Part shown: positions 5,201 through 39,815 of the stretch, piece by piece | Layout: each line of letters starts with the position of its first letter | How positions within the stretch are numbered: position 1 is the stretch's first letter | NCBI RefSeq assembly: GCF_030506285.1 | Contig: NZ_CP119422.1 | Location: 1,116,001 to 1,180,000, forward strand | Length of the DNA stretch: 64,000 nucleotides | Origin: Catalinimonas niigatensis | GTDB taxonomy: Bacteria; Bacteroidota; Bacteroidia; Cytophagales; Cyclobacteriaceae | Direction: 5' to 3' | The notes under the pieces: generated by a model | Seen by the model: the letters and a program-made list of their open reading frames with translations, nothing else | Databases searched by the model: none | Told to the model about the DNA's origin: nothing | Position numbers and translations under genes: made by a program

Positions 5201-5836
5201 ATGGTGAGAAAATTATCTATTGCCATATCCATTCTCATGCATCCTTTGCTTATGCCTACTTTTCTGTTTGCCTTTTTATTGTATTATGCTCCGGTCATTA
5301 CGCAACCTATAAATGCTAAGGCGGCCAATTATTTGTTGCTGGCAGTATTAATCACTACTTTTTTACTGCCAATGATCAGTATTACAGCGCTACGTTTTTC
5401 TGATTTTATGAACAAGGGAAAAATCACAGCCCTTAGTATACCCCAACGTAAAGATAGAATATTGCCTTTTTTCTTCACCAGCTTGTTCTATATCATTACT
5501 ACCTATATGTTTTTCAGTAAGTTTAGAGTAAGTCAGGTTCTTGTTATCATTCTGGCTGCGATTACCCTCATCATTCTTATTATCAGTTTCCTTACGTTCT
5601 TCATTAAAGTAAGTGCGCATAGTGCCAGTGCAGGGGCTTTGATGGGATTCTTACTAGGTTTAGGGTTTAAATATCCACAGGAAAGAATTTTATGGCCTTT
5701 ACTTGCCATTATACTCTTGGGAGGAATGGTCATGTCAGCAAGGCTTTATCTTAATACACACCGTCCTATAGATATTATAATAGGAAGTATCGTAGGTTTC
5801 TCAGTAAGTCTATGTTCTATACTATTGTTTGTATAA
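5201..5836 (+). CDS. PAP2-like integral membrane phosphatase
   Basis: A 211-aa membrane protein with about six hydrophobic segments. Near residues 143-152 it has KVSAHSASAG, and near 180-195 RLYLNTHRPIDIIIG, which fits the R-x5-H-x3-D motif of PAP2 acid phosphatases. The first PAP2 motif (K-x6-RP) is not evident, so catalysis is inferred from the two other motifs only. Proteins of this type hydrolyse lipid phosphates such as undecaprenyl pyrophosphate or phosphatidate in the inner membrane. The ATG abuts the rpoN stop codon. It converges with ftsY, with only 3 nt between the two stop codons and no room for a separate terminator. Confidence 0.65.
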   Translation: MVRKLSIAISILMHPLLMPTFLFAFLLYYAPVITQPINAKAANYLLLAVLITTFLLPMISITALRFSDFMNKGKITALSIPQRKDRILPFFFTSLFYIITTYMFFSKFRVSQVLVIILAAITLIILIISFLTFFIKVSAHSASAGALMGFLLGLGFKYPQERILWPLLAIILLGGMVMSARLYLNTHRPIDIIIGSIVGFSVSLCSILLFV

Positions 5837-5839
5837 CTT

Positions 5840-6805
5840 CTATTTTCCAAAAAGAGAGTCAACAAATTCCATCTTATTAAAGACCTGAAGATCATCCATC
5901 TTCTCTCCTACCCCAATATATTTAACAGGAATGTTAAACTGATCTGAAATACCAATAACTACACCGCCTTTGGCAGTACCATCCAGTTTGGTGATGGCAA
6001 GCGCAGTGACCTCAGTAGCTCTGGTAAATTCTTTGGCCTGCAAAAAAGCGTTTTGACCGGTACTTCCATCCAGTACCAACAACACTTCATGCGGAGCCTC
6101 CGGAATAAACTTCTGAACAACGCGCTTGATTTTAGTCAGCTCGTTCATCAGATTCACCTTATTGTGTAAACGTCCTGCGGTATCAATGATGACTACATCA
6201 ACCTTACTTTCTTGACCTTGTTTGGCAGCATCAAAAGCCACAGAAGCCGGATCGGTATTCATCCCATGCGAGACTACGGGCACACCTACCCTTTCGCCCC
6301 AAAGCTTAATCTGATCTACTGCTGCTGCCCTAAAAGTATCTGCAGCACCTAACAGAACACTTTTGCCTTGTTTTTTAAATTGATAAGCAAGCTTACCAAT
6401 CGTTGTTGTTTTTCCAACACCATTCACTCCAACTACCAGAATGACATATGGCTTATGCTGTTCGGGTACATAAAAATCATTGGCTCTGGCGGTAGCCGAA
6501 TTGTCATCGTTTTCTGCAAGTAAGCCTGCTATTTCTTCCCTTAATATTTTATCCAGTTCGGAAGTACTGAGATATTTATCTCTTGCCACCCGTGCCTCAA
6601 TGCGGTCAATGATTTTAATTATCGTATCAACTCCAACATCACTGGTAGCCAGTATACCCTCAAGTTCGTCTAAGACTTCATCATCAACTGTAGACTTACC
6701 AGCGATAGCCTTACCCATCTTGGAGAAGAAGCTGTCTTTAGACTTTTCCAGCCCTTTGTCCAGAGATTCTTTTTTTTCTTTAGAGAAGAAACCAAATAGT
6801 GCCAT
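5840..6805 (-). CDS. ftsY: Signal recognition particle receptor FtsY
   Basis: An SRP GTPase that docks ribosome-SRP complexes at the inner membrane. From the chosen start it is 321 aa: a short N-terminal segment (MALFGFFSKEKKE), the helical N domain, then the G domain with GVNGVGKTTTIGKLAY (P-loop), DTFRAAAVDQ, DTAGRLHNKVNLM, TKLDGTAKGG and the closing GVGEKMDDLQVF. The frame extends further upstream to 6844, but that stretch would run into the terminator of the ribosomal-protein operon. The N-terminus MALFGFFSKEK is also typical of Bacteroidota FtsY, so 6805 is preferred. There is no long acidic A domain, as is usual for this phylum. Confidence 0.95.
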   Translation of the reverse strand: MALFGFFSKEKKESLDKGLEKSKDSFFSKMGKAIAGKSTVDDEVLDELEGILATSDVGVDTIIKIIDRIEARVARDKYLSTSELDKILREEIAGLLAENDDNSATARANDFYVPEQHKPYVILVVGVNGVGKTTTIGKLAYQFKKQGKSVLLGAADTFRAAAVDQIKLWGERVGVPVVSHGMNTDPASVAFDAAKQGQESKVDVVIIDTAGRLHNKVNLMNELTKIKRVVQKFIPEAPHEVLLVLDGSTGQNAFLQAKEFTRATEVTALAITKLDGTAKGGVVIGISDQFNIPVKYIGVGEKMDDLQVFNKMEFVDSLFGK

Positions 6806-6846
6806 AAGACTAATTAGAATAAAAAGTGAATATATAATATACAAAA

Positions 6847-6872
6847 AAAGCCCATAGCGGGCTTTAAAAAAA
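6847..6872 (-). terminator. Rho-independent terminator of rpmB-rpmG-DUF4295 operon
   Basis: A 7-bp stem, AAAGCCC (6847-6853) with GGGCTTT (6859-6865), is flanked by A-rich sequence on the plus strand. Read on the minus strand this is a stem-loop followed by seven T residues, just after the DUF4295 stop. It separates that operon from ftsY, though read-through into ftsY is possible. Confidence 0.75.
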
Positions 6873-6892
6873 CTTAGACGAAATAAAATTAT

Positions 6893-7048
6893 TTATTTCC
6901 TGGTCAAATAATCTTTTACAGAATCTACCGGTACCATTTCTTCCTTGAAGGTATAAGCACCAGTCTTTGGTGATTTAACCGCCTTAATAACCTTAGCTAC
7001 GGTTTTACCACCTTCTTTTCTCATTGAAGCAACTGATTTCTTTGCCAT
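6893..7048 (-). CDS. DUF4295 small basic protein
   Basis: A 51-aa lysine-rich protein translated from the ATG at 7048: it begins MAKKSVASMRKEGGKTVAKV and ends VDSVKDYLTRK. A small protein of this kind (DUF4295) is regularly found after rpmG and before ftsY in Bacteroidota, and the position here matches exactly. Only 2 nt separate it from the rpmG stop codon, so the three small genes form one operon. Its function is unknown to me. Its size, high charge and genetic linkage suggest a ribosome-associated or assembly role, but that is inference. Confidence 0.85.
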   Translation of the reverse strand: MAKKSVASMRKEGGKTVAKVIKAVKSPKTGAYTFKEEMVPVDSVKDYLTRK

Positions 7049-7050
7049 GA

Positions 7051-7239
7051 TTATTTAATTTCTCTGTGAACAGTCTGTTTCTTTAAAATAGGATTGTATT
7101 TCTTACGTTCCAACCTTTCAGTCGTATTTTTACGGTTCTTGGTGGTGATGTAGCGCGATGTACCAGGCTGACCACTGGTTTTGTGTTCAGTACATTCTAG
7201 GATTACCTGTATACGATTACCTTTACTTTTCTTAGCCAT
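7051..7239 (-). CDS. rpmG: 50S ribosomal protein L33
   Basis: A 62-aa component of the large ribosomal subunit. The sequence [19 protein letters not shown], then [20 protein letters not shown] and the conserved end [14 protein letters not shown], is diagnostic of bacterial L33. Only one cysteine (LECTEH) is present, so this is the form without the paired CxxC zinc motifs. It lies between rpmB (upstream, 50 nt) and DUF4295 (downstream, 2 nt) on the minus strand. Confidence 0.96.
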
Positions 7240-7289
7240 TGTTCAATTAATATTTTTGATTCAGACAAGTACCAATACAAAAAATAGTA

Positions 7290-7529
7290 CTATACTAAAG
7301 CTGTTCCTTTTTCTCTAGCTTCTTTCAAAACTGAAGTAATTCCTTTTTTGTTGATCGTTCTCAACACAGAAGTAGATACTTTTATAGTGACCCAACGGTC
7401 TTCCTCCGGAAGGTAAAAGCGCTTCTTCTGAAGGTTAGGGTAAAACTTACGCTTTGTTTTATTATTAGCCTTGGAAACATTGTTTCCCACCTGAGGTCTT
7501 TTACCTGTTATCTGACAAACTTTAGCCAT
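7290..7529 (-). CDS. rpmB: 50S ribosomal protein L28
   Basis: A 79-aa large-subunit ribosomal protein. The N-terminus [20 protein letters not shown] and the following [20 protein letters not shown] are conserved L28 features, and the C-terminal [19 protein letters not shown] completes the family pattern. It is the first gene of the rpmB-rpmG-DUF4295 operon. The promoter must lie between 7530 and 7620. Like most Bacteroidota genes it has no clear Shine-Dalgarno sequence. Confidence 0.96.
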
Positions 7530-7872
7530 TTTATCTCTAAATTTCTTCTTTCCGATATTTAAGGTTGCAAATATCTAAAAAATAATCCGTATTCAAAAAA
7601 GTTACTTAGGCTTTTTTGAATTATCGTAAGGACATTGTTTGCAACCCTATTCACATGAGTACATCGATTATGATAACCCATTTTAGGTAAATACGGTTCA
7701 ATACACATCATTAGGCATTATTATTAAATTTGAAATTTACTTCTTCTTGCAGAACTTTACCTTTATTGCTAATCTATTTACTTTTTGGCATGAGCTCATG
7801 AGGAAGATGCCAGCTTTTTTTTACATTTGAAGCAGCTATTTAGCAAAATTTTTAACCTGAAAATTAATATTA
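7530..7872. other. Intergenic region between rpmB and rocD promoters
   Basis: About 340 bp between divergent genes. It must hold the promoters of the ribosomal operon (minus) and of the aminotransferase gene (plus). A TACATTTG at 7822-7829 fits the Bacteroidota -7 consensus for the plus-strand gene, about 44 nt before its ATG, but I see no matching -33 element. No ORF or RNA gene is supported. Confidence 0.4.
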
Positions 7873-11773: not shown

Positions 11774-12409
11774 TTATTTCAATTCACTATACTTATCAGC
11801 AATATAGGTTACCGACTCCTTGAGTTTACTAATTTCTTTTTTGCACATACTGCGGTAAGGTTCTTCCATTTCAGCAATTTCAATTAAACCTTCTATTCTA
11901 CTAATATCACTCAGGAAACGCTGATGATGTAAATCATGTACTATTCCATCATGTAAAACCTTATAATCAGAGATTTGGCCTAGGTAATTTCTGTGTATGT
12001 AAAAAAGATAGACAACCACACAATTGAAAATACAGATAATAGCTGATACGTCTATCCAAAGGGGAGTTTTCTGAGTGAATGGTAGGGTGTCATAAGTCAT
12101 AAAAACTGAATAAAAGATAGAAGCCAGCGCAATCATTTGCAGAGCAAAATCCTTACGGTGTATTGTTAAAAACCAGGCGACTGAGATAAGTACACAAATG
12201 AAATTGATGGAAAAGGAGTATAGGAATAGATGAAGATAATCATAGTAAGGAAACTCAACGTTTTGAGGTACCATCTCCCATAATTTACCTATGAATGGTA
12301 GTAAAAAAACTATGATCAAACTAGCCAGTTTTCTTCCATCTCTGAAAGTAAACTGTGCGCCTTTAAAGATAAGATCAATGATGGGTGATTGAATAATTTT
12401 TGTATACAT
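11774..12409 (-). CDS. Unknown four-helix membrane protein with cytoplasmic helical tail
   Basis: A 211-aa protein I do not recognise. About four hydrophobic segments are visible (residues about 28-48, 64-88, 92-106 and 121-142). They are followed by a roughly 65-residue charged helical tail containing HDLHHQRFLSDISRIEGL and ending KESVTYIADKYSELK. The spacing of His, Asp and Arg recalls a dimerising helical hairpin, but no kinase ATPase domain follows and no named family is claimed. It converges with the osmoprotectant transporter, with stop codons 14 nt apart, and is followed upstream by a large AT-rich gap. The start ATG is the first in the frame. Confidence 0.6.
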   Translation of the reverse strand: MYTKIIQSPIIDLIFKGAQFTFRDGRKLASLIIVFLLPFIGKLWEMVPQNVEFPYYDYLHLFLYSFSINFICVLISVAWFLTIHRKDFALQMIALASIFYSVFMTYDTLPFTQKTPLWIDVSAIICIFNCVVVYLFYIHRNYLGQISDYKVLHDGIVHDLHHQRFLSDISRIEGLIEIAEMEEPYRSMCKKEISKLKESVTYIADKYSELK

Positions 12410-13119
12410 ACTTTACAGAGGGTCGCTGTTCAAATATAGTAATTGTATCCTTCAAATAATAATCTTACCTATTCAAAGTATTAGAATCAAAATATCATGT
12501 GAATAACTCACGTATTAAATCTATGATAATAGTTGTAAATTCAGCTAATTATATTTTGAAAAAGTATTTGAGTCAGAAGAAAAAATTGTTTATAGAAAGA
12601 AAATATTACTTCTATCATATTGTGTAAGTTTGATTCAAATTATTGTACATAAAAACCCCTATGGTATTTTTACTCTATTCCATTAATACAAATTGACTAT
12701 AAAGAACAAGTAGGTATAATAACTTTTATACTTATATATATTATATAAGTATTAACCAATAAAATATCTAAATGAATAAGATATATCAATAATAAGCAAA
12801 AATTTTAATGATTATATAGTATTATTTGGTAATACAATTTTTCTAAATATGGATAGACAGAAATTTTACTGTATGAGAATAGTTTAATATTATATGAAAT
12901 TTTACGTACTATTTACCTACGTACAGAACTGTCTTAGACACAGTGCTAAATGTAATTTTTAAACATAATTTGTACATAAATCAATAAAATATCACAAAAA
13001 ATTGCTAAAATATACTTTTAATACTATATTGTGAGACAATTAATTCTTGGGAATCTTACATGTGCAATTTTCTCTAGTTAATTGGTTACTTATTTTCTTA
13101 ACTACCAAACTATCTAAGT
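12410..13119. other. AT-rich intergenic region
   Basis: About 700 bp of very AT-rich sequence between the membrane protein (minus) and the small lipoprotein (plus). It contains an 11-bp inverted repeat, ATACTTATATA (12728-12738) with TATATAAGTAT (12742-12752). No ORF above about 30 codons that looks coding, no tRNA and no repeat family were found. It probably holds promoters for both flanking genes; no certain -33/-7 pair was identified. Confidence 0.45.
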
Positions 13120-31704: not shown

Positions 31705-32415
31705 ATGCAAGTAAATTCTACGGTACAGCAGATGCATCACACTTTTTTTAGCCAATGGCCCCGCTACTTTGCACTTACGTCCCTACTTTTCGTGAGCATT
31801 TACCTCTACTTTGACTCCCCCTTAATCTTCTCGGCACTATGGGGCATCTTTTTCTTCTATTTTCTCTACCAGGGACGATTATTCTGGAAACCCCTGGGAG
31901 TGCTGGGTGGCATTGCCAATAATATCACTGCTGTCAGGGTATTGGGAATGCTTTTGCTGCTTACCTTTCAGCCCTATTTTCACTATTATGCTTTTTTTGT
32001 ACTGGGTATCCTGATTTTGATTGCCGACGGGCTGGATGGATATTATGCCCGTAAATACCATACGGTTTCTGAATTCGGAGACTTTTTTGACAAAGAAACG
32101 GATGCTTTTTTTGTACTGGCATTTTGTGTCATCCTGATTGAGCAGGGGCTGATCGGGAAATGGGTGCTCCTTCCCGGACTGATGCGCTATGCCTTTGTGC
32201 TTATTCTCTATCTCTTCAATATTGAGCACATCTCCCTGGGCAAATCATTCCGCCGCCAGTTTTTAGGCATGTGGTTTATGGGTACCATCATGGCCTGCTT
32301 TGTACTTCCCACACCTATTTATACGGCAGGGATGATCTTCGCTACCACCATGCTGGCTTATTCTTTTATGAAAGATATCTTTCTTATGATCCGACAACGT
32401 AGCCATCAGGGATAG
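31705..32415 (+). CDS. CDP-alcohol phosphotransferase family protein
   Basis: 236 aa with about five or six membrane helices. The family motif D-G-x2-D-G-x2-A-R-x8-G-x3-D-x3-D is complete: ADGLDGYYARKYH followed by SEFGDFFDKETDAFF (about residues 110-140). These enzymes join a CDP-activated alcohol to a second alcohol with loss of CMP. The substrate cannot be read from the motif. The gene converges on the minus-strand operon below, overlapping the methyltransferase gene by 10 nt at the 3' ends, so it probably belongs with that biosynthetic cluster rather than with phospholipid housekeeping. A housekeeping PgsA or PssA would normally lie elsewhere. Confidence 0.85.
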   Translation: MQVNSTVQQMHHTFFSQWPRYFALTSLLFVSIYLYFDSPLIFSALWGIFFFYFLYQGRLFWKPLGVLGGIANNITAVRVLGMLLLLTFQPYFHYYAFFVLGILILIADGLDGYYARKYHTVSEFGDFFDKETDAFFVLAFCVILIEQGLIGKWVLLPGLMRYAFVLILYLFNIEHISLGKSFRRQFLGMWFMGTIMACFVLPTPIYTAGMIFATTMLAYSFMKDIFLMIRQRSHQG

Positions 32416-33281
32416 GCAAAAATATCGCTGTGGTCTACAATAATCTCTAACTGGTGATCCCGACACATCTGTTTTTTCTTCTCCAGCCAGACCTCTAAAT
32501 CCTCTATTTCACTGGCACTCAGACTCAAATCACGCACGGCATGTTCAAAAAAATGCAGCAGGTAATGCTGCATGGTAGAGTCATATCGCTTCAAATGCCA
32601 CTGGCTTCCCTCCTGCTCTACCATCATCTGATGTTCAGCCAGAAGATCCAGCATCTCCTCAGTACAGTTTGGGCCCATTGCAGCGCCAAATGCCTGTGGA
32701 CGGGTCATGTGGGTATGGAAATAACGTATAAAACGGCCATCTTCTTCTGAAAAGGGAAGAAATGAGGTCTCATAATAATTGAGGGTAGCCATCAGACAAA
32801 CGTTGTAAGCCGATAGTTTACAGGCAAAAGTATCAAACTGATCGTAACTAAGCAGATCAAACAAAGCATTGGCAGTAATGACATCTATTTTTTTTAGGTC
32901 AGTATGCTGTTCTATCTCTTCCAAACCTCCGTGGGCAAAACGAATATGGGCTTTTTTATCGCCCGAGTGAATACTTAACAAACCATTATTTTCTTCTAAC
33001 CGATAATTGTGTTTTTGCGCAAAACCCATCAGTTTTTCCTGGCAGGACTTAAGCACATTATGCTCACAATCCAACAGCGTCCATTCCTGATGATTAGGGA
33101 GTTTGTCAAAATAATATTGAAAGTTTGAGCCTGTACCCGCTCCGGCATCTACAATCGCCAATGAATTTGCTTCATTAAAATACGCAAGAAACTTCTTTTC
33201 AATATTGGCATTGCGTGCCTCCGCATCGCAGGCATAGCGGTGGTCTAACCAAAGTACGGGGTCATTATAATTGATATGCAT
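32406..33281 (-). CDS. Class I SAM-dependent methyltransferase
   Basis: 291 aa. Motif I is seen as AIVDAGAGTGSNFQYYF (about 45-60) and motif II as WTLLDCEHNVLKSC, with the SAM-contacting acidic residue (ITANALFDLLSYDQF) further on. Methylated substrates are not predictable. It is the last gene of the minus-strand operon, 8 nt downstream of the glycosyltransferase, with tail-to-tail overlap to the CDP-alcohol transferase gene. Its C-terminal half is helical and resembles a small-molecule methyltransferase rather than an rRNA or protein one. It is the candidate for O- or N-methylation in the GTP-derived pathway described in the findings. Confidence 0.8.
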   Translation of the reverse strand: MHINYNDPVLWLDHRYACDAEARNANIEKKFLAYFNEANSLAIVDAGAGTGSNFQYYFDKLPNHQEWTLLDCEHNVLKSCQEKLMGFAQKHNYRLEENNGLLSIHSGDKKAHIRFAHGGLEEIEQHTDLKKIDVITANALFDLLSYDQFDTFACKLSAYNVCLMATLNYYETSFLPFSEEDGRFIRYFHTHMTRPQAFGAAMGPNCTEEMLDLLAEHQMMVEQEGSQWHLKRYDSTMQHYLLHFFEHAVRDLSLSASEIEDLEVWLEKKKQMCRDHQLEIIVDHSDIFAYP

Positions 33282-33289
33282 AGCTTAGA

Positions 33290-34324
33290 TCATAAAAAAT
33301 CCCTAAAAAAATTCAAAAAAAGAGCAGCAGCCTGCTTCCAGGTATATGCTTCATATATTTTTGTATCAGCCTTTGCTGATTGCCATAATTCTAAAATTTC
33401 TAAATTATTCCGGCTTAATTTTATGAAATTTTCTGCTAATTCGGAAATTTGAAGATATAGCATTCCTACTCCATCCTCTAAATGTTTTGCAGCATGCCCC
33501 CCTTCATACAACAACAGAGGTAAGCCTTGTACTTTGGCTTCCTGTATCGCCATGCCAAAAGTTTCCATGTGTGCAGTGGAAAGAAAGAGATGATGCTGAG
33601 CATACTGTTTTAGCGTAGCAGTATGCTCCAAGCCTCCCAAAAAATGCACTTTGTTTTTTAAATCAGAAGTTTCCACAAGTTGCACACAGGCATCAAAATA
33701 GTCAGGTTCCATGTCAGTGCGTCCAATGATGTTGAGTACAAAAGCATCCTCTTTTTCTGATTGACTGGATAAAGCTTCCAGAAAAGGCAGGATGCCTTTG
33801 CGCTCTACCACATTGGCTACCATCAAACCTTTGACAGGAAGATCAGGAGGCAAAGAGGAAACAGAGGAAGCAAGCGTACTGGCCGGTTCTACCACCATCA
33901 TGGGAGCCGAAATTCCTTTTTGCAATAAATAAGTTTTTGAGTACGCACTGCTCAGCAGAAAAGCCTGAAAGAAATCTAACACCTCTTTTTCATGCTCCTC
34001 AAAAAAAAGAGTAGCATCCACTCCGGCAGGAGGATGAAGGCTTTGGAGATGATGCATGATAAAAAATGAATACGTCTTGGCTGGCCGAACACCAATCAAA
34101 GGCTTCATTTCTTCTACAAAAAGACTGTCTACGCCATAAATCCCTTCCTGATCGTGCAGTACAGCCTCACGATAAGCTGCAAAATCAATAATCTTTACCG
34201 ATTGTCCCAGACTTATCAGCGCCTCTATCAATTGTTCATTATAGATATTTCCGCCGGAAGGTAAATGCCGGTCATCCGGTAATACAAAATGAATTGTTTG
34301 TGATAAAGGCTGAGACGCATCCAT
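33290..34324 (-). CDS. Glycosyltransferase (GT4 type)
   Basis: 344 aa, a GT-B fold retaining transferase. The N-terminal Rossmann start (HFVLPDDRHLPSGGNIYNEQ) contains the GG-x-N acceptor loop. The C-terminal domain has the donor-binding signature ETFGMAIQEAKVQGLPLLLYE with the two Glu residues of GT4 enzymes. It transfers a sugar from a nucleotide-sugar donor to an acceptor that I cannot name. It lies within the operon between PTPS-like (10 nt) and methyltransferase (8 nt) genes, which indicates that the sugar acceptor is an intermediate of the same pathway. No other sugar biosynthesis genes are in the operon. Confidence 0.82.
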   Translation of the reverse strand: MDASQPLSQTIHFVLPDDRHLPSGGNIYNEQLIEALISLGQSVKIIDFAAYREAVLHDQEGIYGVDSLFVEEMKPLIGVRPAKTYSFFIMHHLQSLHPPAGVDATLFFEEHEKEVLDFFQAFLLSSAYSKTYLLQKGISAPMMVVEPASTLASSVSSLPPDLPVKGLMVANVVERKGILPFLEALSSQSEKEDAFVLNIIGRTDMEPDYFDACVQLVETSDLKNKVHFLGGLEHTATLKQYAQHHLFLSTAHMETFGMAIQEAKVQGLPLLLYEGGHAAKHLEDGVGMLYLQISELAENFIKLSRNNLEILELWQSAKADTKIYEAYTWKQAAALFLNFFRDFL

Positions 34325-34334
34325 CGTACGAATT

Positions 34335-34715
34335 TTAAGCTATTTCTCCTTCATAGGATGCCCAGGCAACATGAGATTCGCCCAAAGTAATTTTCAGGCT
34401 TCCTTTAAAAGTACTTTTTATCTCCTGACTGATCACTTCATGGACATATTTTGCCAGAAACTCAGTAGTCGTTAGCTTGCCACGAAACACTTCTATCTCA
34501 TCCAGGTTCTGATATTTCAAAGGCTCCAGCGCCTTTTGCAATTTCTTGGTGGCAATATCAATGTCTATGACAATATTGTTCTCATCCAGTTCTGCTGATT
34601 TAAATTCTGCATCCACTACATAGGTGGCACCATGCAGCTTTTGTGCTGGTCCAAAGGCCTTGCTTTGCAGAGAGTGAGCAATCATCATATGATCGCGTAT
34701 GGTAACAGTGTACAT
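34335..34715 (-). CDS. Divergent 6-pyruvoyl-tetrahydropterin synthase-like protein
   Basis: 126 aa from the ATG at 34715. The frame runs 10 codons further upstream into the dehydrogenase gene, which is unlikely. The PTPS/QueD fold is recognisable: YTVTIRDHMMIAHSLQS, the FGPAQKLHGATYVV segment where QueD has CxxxHGH, then NLDEIEVFRGKLTTTEFLA, which retains the TE motif. The catalytic Cys and one zinc His are replaced (FGPAQ, HGA), so normal dihydroneopterin triphosphate chemistry is unlikely. It probably acts on a GTP-cyclohydrolase-derived intermediate or binds one. It sits 16 nt after the dehydrogenase gene and 10 nt before the glycosyltransferase gene. Confidence 0.75.
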   Translation of the reverse strand: MYTVTIRDHMMIAHSLQSKAFGPAQKLHGATYVVDAEFKSAELDENNIVIDIDIATKKLQKALEPLKYQNLDEIEVFRGKLTTTEFLAKYVHEVISQEIKSTFKGSLKITLGESHVAWASYEGEIA

Positions 34716-34731
34716 GTTTGGTTTTTTTAGA

Positions 34732-35688
34732 TTAAGTATAATCAATGACCCAGCTCAATGCGCTGAGTTTCCCTGCTCTTATCTGGTCAAACAAAGCAGG
34801 TACTTCTTGAAAAGTGATTCTGCTCCCAATATGTTGATCAAAAACTGGGTTTTTCAAAAGTTCCATCACGGTAGTTTTCCGCCGCTGATAGTCCCAGCGT
34901 ACTTTCTTCTTCCCGGGGATCTGAGAGACTTGTGAGCTGATGATCTGCTTTCGCTGGTGATGAAAACTGTTGCCTAAATGAATATGTACCGCCTGTTCTC
35001 CGTACCAGCTCAGTTCTATTATTTTTCCCTCCATACCCACATGGTCAATGCAGGTTTGAAGCCCCTGGCTGCTCCCACTGCAATGAAAGGCGATATCATA
35101 TTCATGAAAGCCATCCACCAGATGAAAACCCATCTTTTCAGCGATGTTACAACGATCCGGATTCGTTTCATGGATTGACAAATCCACTCCAGGGATAGAC
35201 TGTAGCAATCGGGCGGTCAGTGAGCCAATGATGCCAAAGCCTACCAGCAGCACCCGGTCTCCTATACTTACCTCCGAATCCCAGACTGCATTCAGGGCCG
35301 TCTCCATATTACTGGCCAGCGTAGCCCGCGGAGCAGGGATATCAGCAGGAATAACTTTCAGGTCAGCAGCTTTTACCTTACAAATATCCTGATGGGGATG
35401 GAGCAGATGTACCAACTGGCCTTGTAAAGCTGCCGGTCCTTCGGTTACTTTTCCTACCAGCGAATAGCCGTACTTAATCGGAAAAGAAAAGGCTCCTTCC
35501 ATATAGGGTACACTCATCTGCTTATTCATAGAAACCGGCACTTGTCCGTTGGCCACCAGGCGCTCCGTACCCGTACTGATCAGACTGTACAAGGCTTTCA
35601 CTTCACACTCGCCATCAGTACTATCCAGAGCATCCTGGATGATGGTTTTGTGAGAGGAAATGTGCCAGAGGGCCTGTGCATTATGCAT
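34732..35688 (-). CDS. MDR-superfamily dehydrogenase, zinc-less type
   Basis: 318 aa. The Rossmann motif is RVLLVGFGIIGSLTARLL (near residue 150). The N-terminal segment EVKALYSLISTGTERLVANG resembles the BchC-type branch of medium-chain dehydrogenases, which have Ser-Thr-Gly-Thr-Glu rather than the catalytic zinc Cys. The structural zinc Cys cluster is also absent. It should oxidise or reduce an alcohol on an intermediate with NAD(P). It overlaps the RibD-type reductase gene by 8 nt upstream and is followed by the PTPS-like gene, which ties it to the cluster. The substrate is not readable from sequence. Confidence 0.78.
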   Translation of the reverse strand: MHNAQALWHISSHKTIIQDALDSTDGECEVKALYSLISTGTERLVANGQVPVSMNKQMSVPYMEGAFSFPIKYGYSLVGKVTEGPAALQGQLVHLLHPHQDICKVKAADLKVIPADIPAPRATLASNMETALNAVWDSEVSIGDRVLLVGFGIIGSLTARLLQSIPGVDLSIHETNPDRCNIAEKMGFHLVDGFHEYDIAFHCSGSSQGLQTCIDHVGMEGKIIELSWYGEQAVHIHLGNSFHHQRKQIISSQVSQIPGKKKVRWDYQRRKTTVMELLKNPVFDQHIGSRITFQEVPALFDQIRAGKLSALSWVIDYT

Positions 35689-36646
35689 TATTTCCTACAT
35701 TCATAGCTCCAACAAACATATACGTATTGCCCATAGGACGAAAAAAGAAGCTATCAAACTGCACTGCCTGCTGCACATGCGTAATCTCCGTTAGATTAAA
35801 ACTGCTTACTCCTGAGCCAAAAATAATGGGAGCAATATGGAGTTGCACGATATCAGTCGCTTTCTCTTCCATAAACCCTGAAGTAGTGGCTGAACCACCT
35901 TCTATGTATACTGAATACAAGGATCGCTGATAAAGAAAGCGAAGTAGTGCATGACAATCTATCCTGCCTTTGGCATTAGGTTCAAAAGGGAAATATTCCG
36001 TTTGAGGAATCTGAGGATCATCACAGGTGCCTACAATGATAACATCATCTTTACACTTCTCCTGCAAACTGCTGAAATCAGCATCAGATGAACATATTAC
36101 GATTCGCTGGGGATTTTTACCTTCTACCAACCTTACCGTCAGAGCAGGTTGATCAAAATTCAGTGTATTGGCTCCGATCAGAATACTGTCGCAAAGGGCA
36201 CGCATACGGTGGGCATGGACAAGGTTCTCTTCGTTTCCTATCCATTTGGAATCTCCGCTTTGCGTAGCAATTCGTCCGTCCAGTGATTGCGCAAAATGAG
36301 TAATGGCTACGGCTCTTCCCATTTTTCGTGCTTGCAAGGGGAGAAAGCAGTAAGGCAAGTAGGCAGTTAAAAATTCTTTTGCTTCTTCCGGGAGTCCCAT
36401 ATTCTGAACTATATGCACAGTATAAGTATCCAGTCTAAAAACACTTGCCTGTTCATGGCTCATTTCAAGTTCAGGGTTGGCAATGATCATAAGCAGTAGA
36501 CTATCCTTGACCGGTACGGGAAGATGATTGATCCGGACTTCCGGTTCGGCACCAAGCTGTAAAAAACAATAGTCTATATTCTCCTCTGAATGTTTTACTT
36601 TCTCAGCGAGCATTAGTATCCCTAACCAGTAATCTTCTATCTCCAT
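35681..36646 (-). CDS. RibD C-terminal-type pyrimidine reductase
   Basis: 321 aa. The conserved part (about 100-321) starts at RAVAITHFAQSLDGRIATQS and has WIGNEENLVHAHRMRALCDSILIGANTL, QPALTVRL and, at the end, QLHIAPIIFGSG. This is the dihydrofolate reductase-like reductase half of RibD. The N-terminal 100 residues do not carry the deaminase zinc motif (HAE...PCxxC), so this is a reductase only. In riboflavin synthesis it would reduce the ribosyl group of the RibA product. As a partner of the RibA gene directly upstream, it should act on a GTP-derived diaminopyrimidine. It overlaps the dehydrogenase gene by 8 nt. Confidence 0.82.
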   Translation of the reverse strand: MEIEDYWLGILMLAEKVKHSEENIDYCFLQLGAEPEVRINHLPVPVKDSLLLMIIANPELEMSHEQASVFRLDTYTVHIVQNMGLPEEAKEFLTAYLPYCFLPLQARKMGRAVAITHFAQSLDGRIATQSGDSKWIGNEENLVHAHRMRALCDSILIGANTLNFDQPALTVRLVEGKNPQRIVICSSDADFSSLQEKCKDDVIIVGTCDDPQIPQTEYFPFEPNAKGRIDCHALLRFLYQRSLYSVYIEGGSATTSGFMEEKATDIVQLHIAPIIFGSGVSSFNLTEITHVQQAVQFDSFFFRPMGNTYMFVGAMNVGNNA

Positions 36647-36740
36647 ATGATTTAGTTAAAAGCTACAGGTGAACTTCAAAAAATTAATGCAGTCAGCACT
36701 TGCACTACTTGAAACCTTCTACTTCAAACCTTTGACCTTT

Positions 36741-37343
36741 CTACTTACTAATATCTAACAAATGACCCATTAGATTTTGTTTGGTTTGCAAATAATCAAG
36801 ATTTTCCTGATGGGGTTTTATCTCAATAGGCACTCTGCCCAGTACCTGAACACCTGATTTTTTGAGGCTTTCCAGTTTGTCAGGATTATTGGTCATCAGC
36901 AGTACAGAGGAGATATTCAGGTCCCGAAGTATTTCAATGGCAATCCCATAATCTCTTTCGTCAATTTCAAAGCCCAGATGTACATTGGCTTCGGCAGTAT
37001 TCAGCCCCTGATCCTGAAGATTATAGGCTTTCATCTTATTGATCAGCCCGATACCACGCCCCTCCTGTCTCAGATAAATTACTACTCCTCCATCTTTACC
37101 CGTCATCATCATGGACTGGTCCAGTTGCTCACCACAATCGCAACGTAAAGAAGCAAACACATCACCAGTCATGCATTCGGAATGAATACGCACCAGTACG
37201 GGCTTAGTAAAATCAGTCTTCTCACTTACCATAGCCAGGTGAGGCATAGGATTATCCGCCTCACCAGCATATCCAATCATTTTATAAGTACCAAAGCGGG
37301 TAGGTAAGTTTGTTTCAGCTTGTCTTACTAATTTTTGTATCAT
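36741..37343 (-). CDS. ribA: GTP cyclohydrolase II
   Basis: 200 aa. Opens GTP to 2,5-diamino-6-ribosylamino-4(3H)-pyrimidinone 5'-phosphate, formate and pyrophosphate. The zinc cysteines are in HSECMTGDVFASLRCDCGEQ (C-x10-C-x-C). The catalytic region LRQEGRGIGLINKMKAYNLQD and the GTP-contacting MTNNPDKLESL are intact. It is a stand-alone RibA without a DHBP synthase (RibB) domain, which suggests a second copy for secondary metabolism rather than the fused RibBA usual in riboflavin synthesis. ATG 37343 is preferred over the upstream TTG. It lies 94 nt before the RibD-type reductase gene. Confidence 0.92.
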   Translation of the reverse strand: MIQKLVRQAETNLPTRFGTYKMIGYAGEADNPMPHLAMVSEKTDFTKPVLVRIHSECMTGDVFASLRCDCGEQLDQSMMMTGKDGGVVIYLRQEGRGIGLINKMKAYNLQDQGLNTAEANVHLGFEIDERDYGIAIEILRDLNISSVLLMTNNPDKLESLKKSGVQVLGRVPIEIKPHQENLDYLQTKQNLMGHLLDISK

Positions 37344-37448
37344 AAGGATTATCAACTCTTCAACGTGGGTACTTCAGAAGAAGAAGCACAGGGGGTTACA
37401 CATTAACAAATATTGCACAGAAAGTTCACCAAAATACACTAAATACCT

Positions 37449-38795
37449 TTATCCGGAAAATTCTAATTCCAACATTTTCCGAGAGCTTACCTTGTTCAGA
37501 ATGACATAAGAAAGCAGGGTAGCCAGCAGATGTGATATCGGATAAGCGGCCAGGATACCATCAAAACTGTTCATCAACATAGCTCCATAAGCTATCGGCA
37601 GATAAAACAAAAACAAGTGACATAGCGCCAGTCCCATAGCCAGCCAGGGGCGCTGGTATACGTTGAGCACTGTCAGGCTGATCATCACAAAACCATTCAT
37701 GGCATATCCCCAGGGTACAATCTTCAGGTAGTCATTCAGTGCCCGGAAAGTAGCCGCATCCGTAGCAAATATCCTACTGATGTGTTCCCTGAATACACTG
37801 ATAAATACTGCTGCTAATAAGCCTAAGATAAAGGCGTAAGTAATTCCGTACTGTAAGCCCTTATGCGCTCTTGTCCTCTCCTCAGCACCAAGATTTTGTC
37901 CGATAAAGGGTGCCAATACTGCTGTTAACGAAGTAAACGAAAATATGGCCAGCATATCTACCCGTGATCCTGCACCATAAGCGGATACGGCTGCATTGCC
38001 AAAATGACTTAGCAATTTTACAAAAAGCGTGTTTCCCAAAGGTACCAGTACGTTGGTAAGGGCAATTGGAAAAGCCATAGCTACGATGGGCCTCCACCGG
38101 AAAATCCGCGCAAATGACCAATCTGTATGTTTATATCTTTTGAGTGCTTTCCATAAATAAGGAACTGGTAGCCACATGCTGATGAAAATGGCAATTGTGG
38201 TAGCCCAGGCTGCACCGGCAATGCCAAGCCTGGGGAAGCCCGCATACCCAAAAATCAGAAGCGGGTCCAGCAGGGCATTGATTATCACCAGTAGTAACAT
38301 CGTATACGTCAGCAATTTATGATTACCGAGTGCCCGTGCCAAGCTGGTCACAGCTACCAGCAGGCACAAAAAAAACATACCGGGGATCATGATCTCAAAA
38401 TATTGCATGAGTTGCGTCAACACTTCTTTTCTGGCACCCAACTGCACAAAAAGGTTACGACTTCCCATGAACAGGATTATCCACAACATCAATCCAAAGA
38501 TAAAAGCAAAACTAATGCAACTTATCAGGAGTGAGTGCAGTTTTTTGTGGTCATTTCCTCCGGCAGCATTGGCTACCACTACTACCATACCTGCTCCTAC
38601 TCCAAGTAACATACTGACCAGCAAAGTCATCACAGGCGTAGCATAACTTACAGCGGTAAGCGATCGGCTTCCCAATTGACTGATAAAATATACATCTATC
38701 AGCATGAAAGAAGCCATCATCAGTACGCCCAAGAGCAGTACTCCAGACTGTCTGAGTATGTATTTTGCAATATTTCCCTGCAGTACTTCCGACAT
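37449..38795 (-). CDS. MATE-family efflux transporter
   Basis: 448 aa with 12 hydrophobic segments in two homologous halves (for example ITEQ-free LMLWIILFMGSRNLF in the first, RPIVAMAFPIALTNVLVPLG in the second). MATE proteins export cationic or aromatic compounds using a Na+ or H+ gradient. ATG 38795 is preferred; the frame's extra upstream codons start with TTG. Being first in the minus-strand cluster, about 105 nt ahead of ribA, it is a good candidate exporter for the compound made by the downstream enzymes, but the spacing is large enough for an independent promoter. Confidence 0.85.
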   Translation of the reverse strand: MSEVLQGNIAKYILRQSGVLLLGVLMMASFMLIDVYFISQLGSRSLTAVSYATPVMTLLVSMLLGVGAGMVVVVANAAGGNDHKKLHSLLISCISFAFIFGLMLWIILFMGSRNLFVQLGARKEVLTQLMQYFEIMIPGMFFLCLLVAVTSLARALGNHKLLTYTMLLLVIINALLDPLLIFGYAGFPRLGIAGAAWATTIAIFISMWLPVPYLWKALKRYKHTDWSFARIFRWRPIVAMAFPIALTNVLVPLGNTLFVKLLSHFGNAAVSAYGAGSRVDMLAIFSFTSLTAVLAPFIGQNLGAEERTRAHKGLQYGITYAFILGLLAAVFISVFREHISRIFATDAATFRALNDYLKIVPWGYAMNGFVMISLTVLNVYQRPWLAMGLALCHLFLFYLPIAYGAMLMNSFDGILAAYPISHLLATLLSYVILNKVSSRKMLELEFSG

Positions 38796-38888
38796 AGCAT
38801 GCAATTAAGCAATAAACTGATGAATGGACTAAATCATTGAAGTGATTTTATTATTTTGCCCCATATCTTCATCTAAAAACAAAATCAT

Positions 38889-39815
38889 ATGCGCAACCAG
38901 ATCGTCGTAGTAGGTAGTTCTAATATAGATCTGATTGCACAGCTCAGCCATCTTCCTAAGCCGGGAGAAACGGTGGGCGATGCTGCATTCAGTCAGGCAC
39001 ATGGAGGCAAAGGAGCTAATCAGACAGTAGCTGCTGCCCGTGCAGGTGCAGAGGTTAGTTTTATTACTTCGTTGGGTAATGATAGTTTTGGGCAAAGCAT
39101 GCTTCAGGATTTTAAGCGTATCGGCATCAATACTGACTATATTTTACAGAGTAAAGATACGCCTACAGGAACTGCCCTGATTTGGGTAGATACCCGGGGA
39201 GAAAACAGCATAGCGGTAGCACCGGGGGCAAACCATAAGCTTAGCCCTCAGTATATTGACGAATGCAGAATTCTGCTTTCAGGGGCAGAACTGATTCTGC
39301 TACAGCTAGAAATTCCTTTTGAAACAGTAGAATATGTCATTGATCTGGCAGCAAGCCTGGGTAAAAAAATTATGCTCAACCCTGCCCCGGCCCGCAAGTT
39401 GGAAAGAAAACACCTGAAGCCCCTATTTAACCTGACTGTAAATGAAACCGAAGCGGCTATGCTCAGTGGGATGCCGGTGGAGACACAGGAGCAAGTAGTA
39501 GAGGCAGGCAGATATCTCCTGGCTATGGGGCCAGAAATGGTGGTCATCACGCTGGGTGCTCGTGGCGTATTTTATCTCACCAAAAGAGAACAGAAAATGG
39601 TAGAGGCTTACCCTGTAAAACCCATAGACACCACCGCAGCAGGAGATGTGTTCTGCGGAGTGCTGGCTTCTCAGATGGTACAAAACAAAAAGCTGGCGGA
39701 TGCGATCAAATATGCCAACGCTGCCGCCGCACTCTCAACGACCATACTGGGAGCTCAACCCTCTGCCCCTAACCAGCAACAGATCAAAGATTTTCTCGAC
39801 CAATATGAATTTTAA
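38889..39815 (+). CDS. rbsK: Ribokinase (PfkB family)
   Basis: 308 aa. Phosphorylates D-ribose to ribose 5-phosphate. The PfkB signatures are present: GSSNIDLIAQLSHLPKPGET and HGGKGANQTVAAARAGAEVS in the N-terminal part, and the second signature DTTAAGDVFCGVLASQM with the catalytic Asp near residue 254. The segment YANAAAALSTTILGAQPSAP is typical of ribokinase rather than of fructokinase. It is divergent from the MATE gene (93 nt) and has no transporter next to it. Regulation is not evident. The reading frame is of standard length and starts at the first ATG. Confidence 0.9.
   Translation: MRNQIVVVGSSNIDLIAQLSHLPKPGETVGDAAFSQAHGGKGANQTVAAARAGAEVSFITSLGNDSFGQSMLQDFKRIGINTDYILQSKDTPTGTALIWVDTRGENSIAVAPGANHKLSPQYIDECRILLSGAELILLQLEIPFETVEYVIDLAASLGKKIMLNPAPARKLERKHLKPLFNLTVNETEAAMLSGMPVETQEQVVEAGRYLLAMGPEMVVITLGARGVFYLTKREQKMVEAYPVKPIDTTAAGDVFCGVLASQMVQNKKLADAIKYANAAAALSTTILGAQPSAPNQQQIKDFLDQYEF

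Follow-up and report, generated by a model that had tools for sequence, protein, structure and literature searches.

Several described systems share parts with the locus considered here, a cluster of eight genes in a 64,000-nucleotide stretch of the genome of Catalinimonas niigatensis (contig NZ_CP119422.1, positions 1,116,001 to 1,180,000; the whole stretch is called the window below). The toxoflavin cluster joins RibA- and RibD-like genes with a methyltransferase and Tox-specific genes. From Streptomyces, the protein SCO6650 is said to have no 6-pyruvoyl-tetrahydropterin synthase (PTPS) activity and to bind a pterin-like substrate, SCO6655 reportedly makes a formylated intermediate, and the Met that replaces Tyr105 in SCO6655 is said to halt that enzyme at the formylated pyrimidine. 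The cyanobacterial route to tetrahydrobiopterin glucoside, named here for its UDP-glucose:tetrahydrobiopterin glucosyltransferase (BGluT), is not known to contain a RibA. In a report on Sinorhizobium, the creatininase-family protein BrbF deformylates the formylated pyrimidine to 2,5-diamino-6-ribosylamino-4(3H)-pyrimidinone 5'-phosphate (DARoPP) and formate (PMC9478397). The cluster in the window is a real, widely conserved and apparently uncharacterised biosynthetic unit, but on present evidence not a categorically new one, because single-enzyme pieces of it are known from Streptomyces, including SCO6650, whose structure has been solved. To that extent the original prediction made from this DNA, that no characterised pathway has exactly this set, needs qualifying, although no paper on the gene set was found in the open-licence literature, a weak negative given that most subscription papers lie outside that search.

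We consider it rather probable that the cluster encodes a dedicated pathway which starts from ring-opened GTP and runs through the steps proposed below. The start of this pathway is well supported, and its product would most likely be a glycosylated, methylated pyrimidine or pteridine derived from the opened ring. A compact core of fixed gene order spans two domains of life, with no described product found for it, and because the order is shared, the genes co-occur even when unlinked and the GTP-opening enzyme is exchanged, this is a clear case of an unread pathway. Its product would also tell the role of SCO6650, which was solved as an uncharacterised protein.

Conservation and distribution of the gene set

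Relatives of the cluster were read in 105 loci, namely the best 80 of 550 dehydrogenase relatives in genome contigs (E 1e-3 or better for the 550, 6e-72 or better for each of the 80), eight plasmid records, 16 family genomes and the window itself (L, G and f numbers are our handles for loci, genomes and families). The best 80 are dominated by Hyphomicrobiales. Neighbours were counted within 9 kb of the dehydrogenase with profiles built from the window proteins; the counts are lower bounds, many loci stopping at contig ends, and since glycosyltransferase family 4 (GT4) and the methyltransferases are large families, a few of their matches could be strangers. PTPS and GT4 genes each lie near the dehydrogenase in 94 of the 105 loci, a methyltransferase in 76, RibD in 57 (that of L096 being only a partial match in the genome-level RibD search), RibA in 49, a CDP-alcohol transferase in 26 (25 once each open reading frame, or ORF, is assigned to its best family) and a MATE transporter in five (L044, L108, L130, L131 and the window). 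Most of the best 80 of the 550 dehydrogenase relatives have PTPS and GT4 genes as neighbours, and around ordinary medium-chain dehydrogenase/reductase (MDR) relatives, read as 13 short control loci with 1.5 kb on each side, other cluster genes appeared in none. Being conserved across genomes, the gene set is more than a product of chance. The set had been put forward as one unit, and its core can be upheld as such; MATE and RibD are rejected as universal members by counts of only five and 57.

In a family sample of 148 genomes, the dehydrogenase, cluster-type PTPS and cluster-type RibD are carried by an identical set of 17, where a lack of co-occurrence in other genomes had been named beforehand as evidence against the prediction. 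Two of the 17 hold these genes at two separate loci. The dehydrogenase was counted at E 1.3e-73 or better (next match 7e-8) and RibD at 1.4e-46 or better (next match 1.1e-23), both thresholds having been chosen after the gap in E-values was visible; the PTPS limit of 1e-20 was fixed beforehand. The chance of a second identical set of 17 among 148 is 1e-22 if the genomes are taken as independent, which these are not. At the level of genera the cluster is present in 13 of 84 in the family sample, and in a phylum sample the dehydrogenase (1e-30) was found in 10 of 395 genomes, that of the window included. So scattered a distribution is in keeping with gain and loss or with transfer.

Alpha- and Gammaproteobacteria, Actinomycetota and haloarchaea share with the window the order dehydrogenase-PTPS-GT4-methyltransferase. 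This order is found on plasmid records of Agrobacterium, Methylosinus, Neorhizobium, Thiodictyon, Microbacterium, Streptomyces, Haladaptatus, Halomicrococcus and Natronorubrum and, without the intervening GT4, on a Rhodobacteraceae plasmid, two Haloarcula records and Halobellus. Three gammaproteobacterial contigs (L072, L102 and L119) hold all four genes in this order, and Polynucleobacter (L059) has dehydrogenase-PTPS-GT4 with RibD and RibA, the only methyltransferase match there being distant and on the other strand. In the dehydrogenase tree, one set (100/100) unites eight haloarchaeal rows, five f36 Bacteroidota rows and an f45 row, and another (99/96) holds the Saprospiraceae rows and a single further row from Bacteroidota; named Saprospiraceae rows lie inside the clade of the window. 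Apart from these, the dehydrogenase has matches of less than 60% identity in 55 Enterobacter plasmid records, which may hold ordinary MDR enzymes.

Some genomes keep the genes in two places. In G125 and G071, RibA, RibD, dehydrogenase and ribokinase lie together (L133, L134) without PTPS, GT4 or methyltransferase, and second loci (L182, L183) carry PTPS-GT4-methyltransferase with an oppositely oriented CDP-alcohol transferase gene; G184 is similarly split (L156, L184), with no RibD or CDP-alcohol transferase seen there. A cluster-type PTPS is encoded elsewhere in nine of 11 genomes that have none near the dehydrogenase (those of 10 of the 11 PTPS-less loci among the 105, L054 being left out, together with G184). 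That the genes co-occur without being linked speaks for a single pathway made up of two modules, and the split loci, the empty control and the identical distribution over 17 genomes together lead us to reject chance linkage. As an observation on G184, sulfotransferase and FkbM methyltransferase genes adjoin its RibA-dehydrogenase pair (L156:7497-9156), the PTPS being at the other locus.

The probable GTP-opening step and the enzymes of the cluster

The window RibA keeps the Cys54, Cys65, Cys67 and Tyr105 of GTP cyclohydrolase II (E. coli numbering). Across the RibA rows the three Cys are kept throughout, and Tyr105 is kept except in the Streptomyces row, which has Met. In the Streptomyces fungicidicus cluster this Met105 RibA stands beside a creatininase-family gene; such a gene also occurs in five other of the 105 loci (L072, L087, L102, L113 and L117), all with a Tyr105 RibA, and in the Haloarcula marismortui cluster. 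In two Haloarcula records and in Natrarchaeobaculum, GTP cyclohydrolase IIa is encoded directly before the dehydrogenase, and the Haloarcula protein scores above the family cut-off. That unrelated enzymes fill the same slot is the best evidence that the pathway begins at ring-opened GTP, and from what is known of these families it would consume GTP. Two further observations concern the same genes: the GTP cyclohydrolase IIa and dehydrogenase of Natrarchaeobaculum (L167:6135-7909) have no PTPS match nearby, and the RibA at L123:7699-8805 has an N-terminal stretch of about 168 residues without a match in Pfam, many alphaproteobacterial RibA rows being similarly long.

The host genome, a single contig of 7.13 Mb, encodes a RibBA with both domains (198784-199854), a RibD of bifunctional length (at 3775869) and lumazine synthase (RibH, at 4685230) outside the cluster, as well as two further PTPS genes, one of which adjoins GTP cyclohydrolase I. 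No 3,4-dihydroxy-2-butanone 4-phosphate (DHBP) synthase, lumazine synthase or deaminase was found in the cluster proteins by Pfam, NCBIfam and a motif check, and the cluster RibD has no deaminase motif. Because RibBA, RibD, RibH and GTP cyclohydrolase I are all encoded elsewhere, riboflavin and ordinary pterins are probably made independently of the cluster, which argues that the cluster serves a dedicated pathway. A riboflavin operon is rejected on these grounds (RibE lay outside the search). The original prediction had described a biosynthetic unit apart from riboflavin synthesis, in which ribB and ribH are absent, and this is what the genome supports; nor are the cluster RibA and RibD its only riboflavin enzymes, which the prediction had given as a possible ground for abandoning it.

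The PTPS-like protein departs from canonical members of its family at positions that we assigned, with their roles, on E. coli QueD as the reference. Among 94 cluster rows, the catalytic Cys and the third zinc His are each Ala in 92 and the His71 position is Tyr in 91, whereas 93 rows retain the first His, 93 the second and all 94 Glu110. The window protein has Ala at the third zinc His and Cys positions and Tyr at the His71 position, and six rows of the haloarchaeal/f36 type mostly keep three His, with the Cys also lost. A canonical QueD/PTPS is thus rejected, the set of three zinc His with catalytic Cys and Asp-His being incomplete. The closest solved relative of the window protein is 3d7j (E 6e-35), the Streptomyces coelicolor protein SCO6650, entered in the PDB as an uncharacterised protein; this match, with the absence of the third zinc His and the catalytic Cys, places it in the SCO6650 type. 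The PTPS of the S. fungicidicus cluster is a close orthologue of SCO6650 (3e-79).

In the RibD reductase, the residues aligned with D200 and R207 of E. coli are kept in 57 of 58 rows, one row being unread there, and point to a ribosyl-phosphate substrate; positions 183 and 290 showed other residues than expected and carry no weight here. The stretches of the dehydrogenase where MDR enzymes hold their zinc ligands read STGTE and GYS in the window, and GTE and YGY are invariant over 12 rows; with the catalytic Cys/His residues (GHE) absent, a zinc-dependent MDR alcohol dehydrogenase is rejected. This protein has no Pfam match, and its NCBIfam BchC score of 59 bits against an equivalog cut-off of 291 leaves it outside BchC; its profile matches in the PDB are L-iditol, sorbitol, xylitol, butanediol, threonine and other dehydrogenases. 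The AlphaFold2 (AF2) model of the GT4 has PDB matches that include sucrose-phosphate synthase, BshA and SenB. That of the methyltransferase is confident, and the 50 PDB matches listed for it are methyltransferases and cyclopropane synthases (TM 0.39-0.57), a generic class I likeness that gives no clue to the substrate. The CDP-alcohol transferase motif DxxDGxxARx8GxxxDxxxD is complete in all 25 cluster rows, that of the window included, and a PgsA-like transferase would suit a polyol phosphate acceptor.

The proposed pathway and its alternatives

In the pathway that we favour, RibA would convert GTP to DARoPP, and the stand-alone RibD reductase would probably turn its ribosyl into a ribityl chain. 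This side chain would then be reworked, perhaps with closure of a pteridine, by the zinc-less MDR dehydrogenase together with the T-fold protein that has lost the Cys; GT4 would attach a sugar and the methyltransferase a methyl group. Where a lineage has the CDP-alcohol transferase, as that of the window does, the product would probably be linked to a phospholipid by a phosphodiester, which would keep it at the membrane. We infer the order of the steps, the ring closure, the sugar, the position of the methyl group and the lipid linkage with less certainty than the use of GTP. The original prediction, too, had proposed a pterin- or pyrimidine-derived lipid or glycoside only tentatively, and it keeps that standing.

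Several observations weigh against this pathway or against the generality of its steps. RibA is near the dehydrogenase in only 49 of the 105 loci, many of which are cut by contig ends, and in five other haloarchaeal clusters no gene for RibA or GTP cyclohydrolase IIa was found in the neighbourhood. The dehydrogenase has no RibD close to it in Streptomyces (L125), in eight haloarchaeal records or in any of five f36 clusters. Among 12 RibD-less loci whose genomes were searched (their completeness is not given), three have a cluster-type RibD elsewhere (L095, L100 and L107) and nine only a RibD of the housekeeping type (Bosea L055, L061, L081, L088 and L094; L082, L097, L105 and L112). With RibD absent from several lineages, the ribityl step can therefore be general only if some other enzyme carries it out. 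No GT4 is present in L122, L127, L171 and all six of L157-L162, and two of the 11 genomes searched for a cluster-type PTPS, those of L043 and L101, have none. The alphaproteobacteria are mostly without the CDP-alcohol transferase and have an MdoH-like gene instead, so that lipid linkage is likewise not general.

The alternative that survives best, though we think it unlikely, is that the cluster makes a tetrahydropterin glycoside resembling biopterin glucoside from the FolE product; PTPS, dehydrogenase and reductase would act on dihydroneopterin, GT4 would add the sugar, and RibA would serve only riboflavin or the size of a pool. All 17 cluster genomes encode FolE, PTPS and GT4 are family types of the known biopterin-glucoside routes, and BGluT sequences are among the GT4 matches. 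However, the first BGluT comes after 30 other GT4 sequences and at rank 41 by fold, a generic GT4 match on both counts, and BGluT is thus rejected as a close relative. Moreover, both types of PTPS are without the catalytic Cys and the window type is also short of one zinc ligand, the reductase retains the residues aligned with the RibD substrate site, and the clusters of several lineages hold GTP-opening enzymes of differing kinds for which such a model has no need.

Second, and still more doubtful, the cluster could be a pterin route that bypasses GTP cyclohydrolase I and leads to a membrane-anchored pteridine common to bacteria and haloarchaea. RibA would open GTP, RibD would make the ribityl chain and the MDR enzyme, which resembles polyol dehydrogenases, would oxidise C2', so that reduction and oxidation together would do the job of the Amadori rearrangement; the Cys-less T-fold protein would close the pyrazine ring, and the dihydropterin phosphate would then be glycosylated, methylated and fixed to a membrane lipid by the CDP-alcohol transferase. 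Third, we give only a slim chance to a locus for a cell-surface glycolipid or glycan that would carry the GTP-derived part as no more than a tag, and whose main actors would be GT4, CDP-alcohol transferase, MdoH, FkbM, sulfatase and an LPG-synthase-like flippase. Envelope-type neighbours do recur in the 105 loci (MdoH-like in 69, FkbM-like in 50, sulfatase-like in 17 and LPG_synthase_TM in six), but they depend on lineage, whereas the dehydrogenase, PTPS and methyltransferase are common to bacteria and archaea. Finally, a second, regulated branch to riboflavin or a flavin analogue (secreted flavins, or roseoflavin- or toxoflavin-like compounds), with the transferases linked by accident, is very improbable: it would account for the RibA and RibD reductase and would recall the separate enzymes for secreted and internal flavins hypothesised in the Sinorhizobium report (PMC9478397), but the cluster has no DHBP synthase, lumazine synthase or deaminase, and genomes with a split locus still carry PTPS, GT4 and methyltransferase.

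Locus layout, neighbouring genes and known systems

All eight ORFs were confirmed where the original prediction had placed them, as seven minus-strand genes and a convergent CDP-alcohol transferase (Table 1), and Pfam and NCBIfam agree with the names it had given except for the methyltransferase and the dehydrogenase. RibA, RibD reductase, PTPS, GT4, CDP-alcohol transferase and MATE score over their Pfam cut-offs and the methyltransferase under it. The close spacing of the core and the convergent overlap, too, were recovered on recomputation: RibD and dehydrogenase genes overlap by 8 nt, dehydrogenase and PTPS overlap by 14 nt from a TTG start or leave a gap of 16 nt from an ATG ten codons on, which may be the real PTPS start, PTPS-GT4 and GT4-methyltransferase gaps are 10 and 8 nt, and methyltransferase and CDP-alcohol transferase overlap by 10 nt. 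Spacing is looser upstream (MATE-RibA 93 nt, RibA-RibD 94 nt).

Table 1. Genes of the cluster and the adjoining ribokinase gene, with coordinates within the window.
Feature	Position	Strand	Remarks
CDP-alcohol phosphatidyltransferase	31705-32415	+	PF01066 64 bits; convergent with methyltransferase
Class I S-adenosylmethionine (SAM) methyltransferase	32406-33281	-	Below Pfam cut-offs; AF2 model pLDDT 95
GT4 retaining glycosyltransferase	33290-34324	-	PF00534; EX7E motif at residue 254; AF2 model pLDDT 90
PTPS-like T-fold protein, SCO6650 type	34335-34745	-	PF01242; best PDB match 3d7j
MDR dehydrogenase, BchC-like, without usual catalytic zinc ligands	34732-35688	-	No Pfam match; sub-cut-off BchC match
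RibD C-terminal-type reductase, no deaminase domain	35681-36646	-	PF01872 123 bits
GTP cyclohydrolase II (RibA), stand-alone	36741-37355	-	PF00925 209 bits; three zinc Cys and Tyr105 kept
MATE family transporter, lineage-specific member	37449-38804	-	PF01554
Ribokinase, divergent from operon, possible accessory	38889-39815	+	TIGR02152 352 bits

The MdoH-like membrane glucosyltransferase gene stands beside the cluster in 69 loci among L046-L129 (for example L061:8071-10218), and in several alphaproteobacterial loci an FkbM methyltransferase gene follows it. The MdoH-like gene and the CDP-alcohol transferase gene (25 loci) are almost mutually exclusive, occurring together only in L074, a pattern that kinship confounds. 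Cytochrome b561 is encoded near the cluster in 36 of the 105 loci (for example L123:12984-13517 and L061:13760-14353), hinting at a membrane redox partner. A ribokinase gene is found near the cluster in two phyla, in the window and L130-L134 on the one hand and at L122:7815-8735 on the other. Beside one f36 cluster (L158) lie two tyrosine-integrase genes (5309-7815 and 11999-12844), and a PF08543 kinase gene adjoins its RibA.

Set beside the known systems, the cluster resembles each in part. With riboflavin biosynthesis (RibBA, RibD, RibH, RibE) it shares RibA and a RibD-type reductase but not the deaminase, DHBP synthase or lumazine synthase. With the cyanobacterial tetrahydrobiopterin glucoside route it shares PTPS and GT4 family members, although the window GT4 is only a generic match to BGluT. 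With archaeal and alphaproteobacterial GTP opening (GTP cyclohydrolase III with ArfB, and BrbF) it shares, in some lineages, genes for GTP cyclohydrolase IIa or creatininase-family proteins, yet those systems serve riboflavin, whereas here the genes lie beside a dehydrogenase and mostly a PTPS and a methyltransferase. Like QueD and 6-pyruvoyl-tetrahydropterin synthase, the cluster PTPS belongs to the T-fold family PF01242 and conserves the Glu (94/94), but it has lost the Cys (92/94), the third zinc His (92/94) and His71 (91/94). The S. fungicidicus cluster has the order dehydrogenase-PTPS-GT4-methyltransferase with RibA and creatininase nearby; it differs in its flippase-like gene, its creatininase and its Met105 RibA, and in having neither RibD nor MATE. 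To the SCO6650/SCO6655 region of S. coelicolor, the window is tied by the match of its PTPS to 3d7j.

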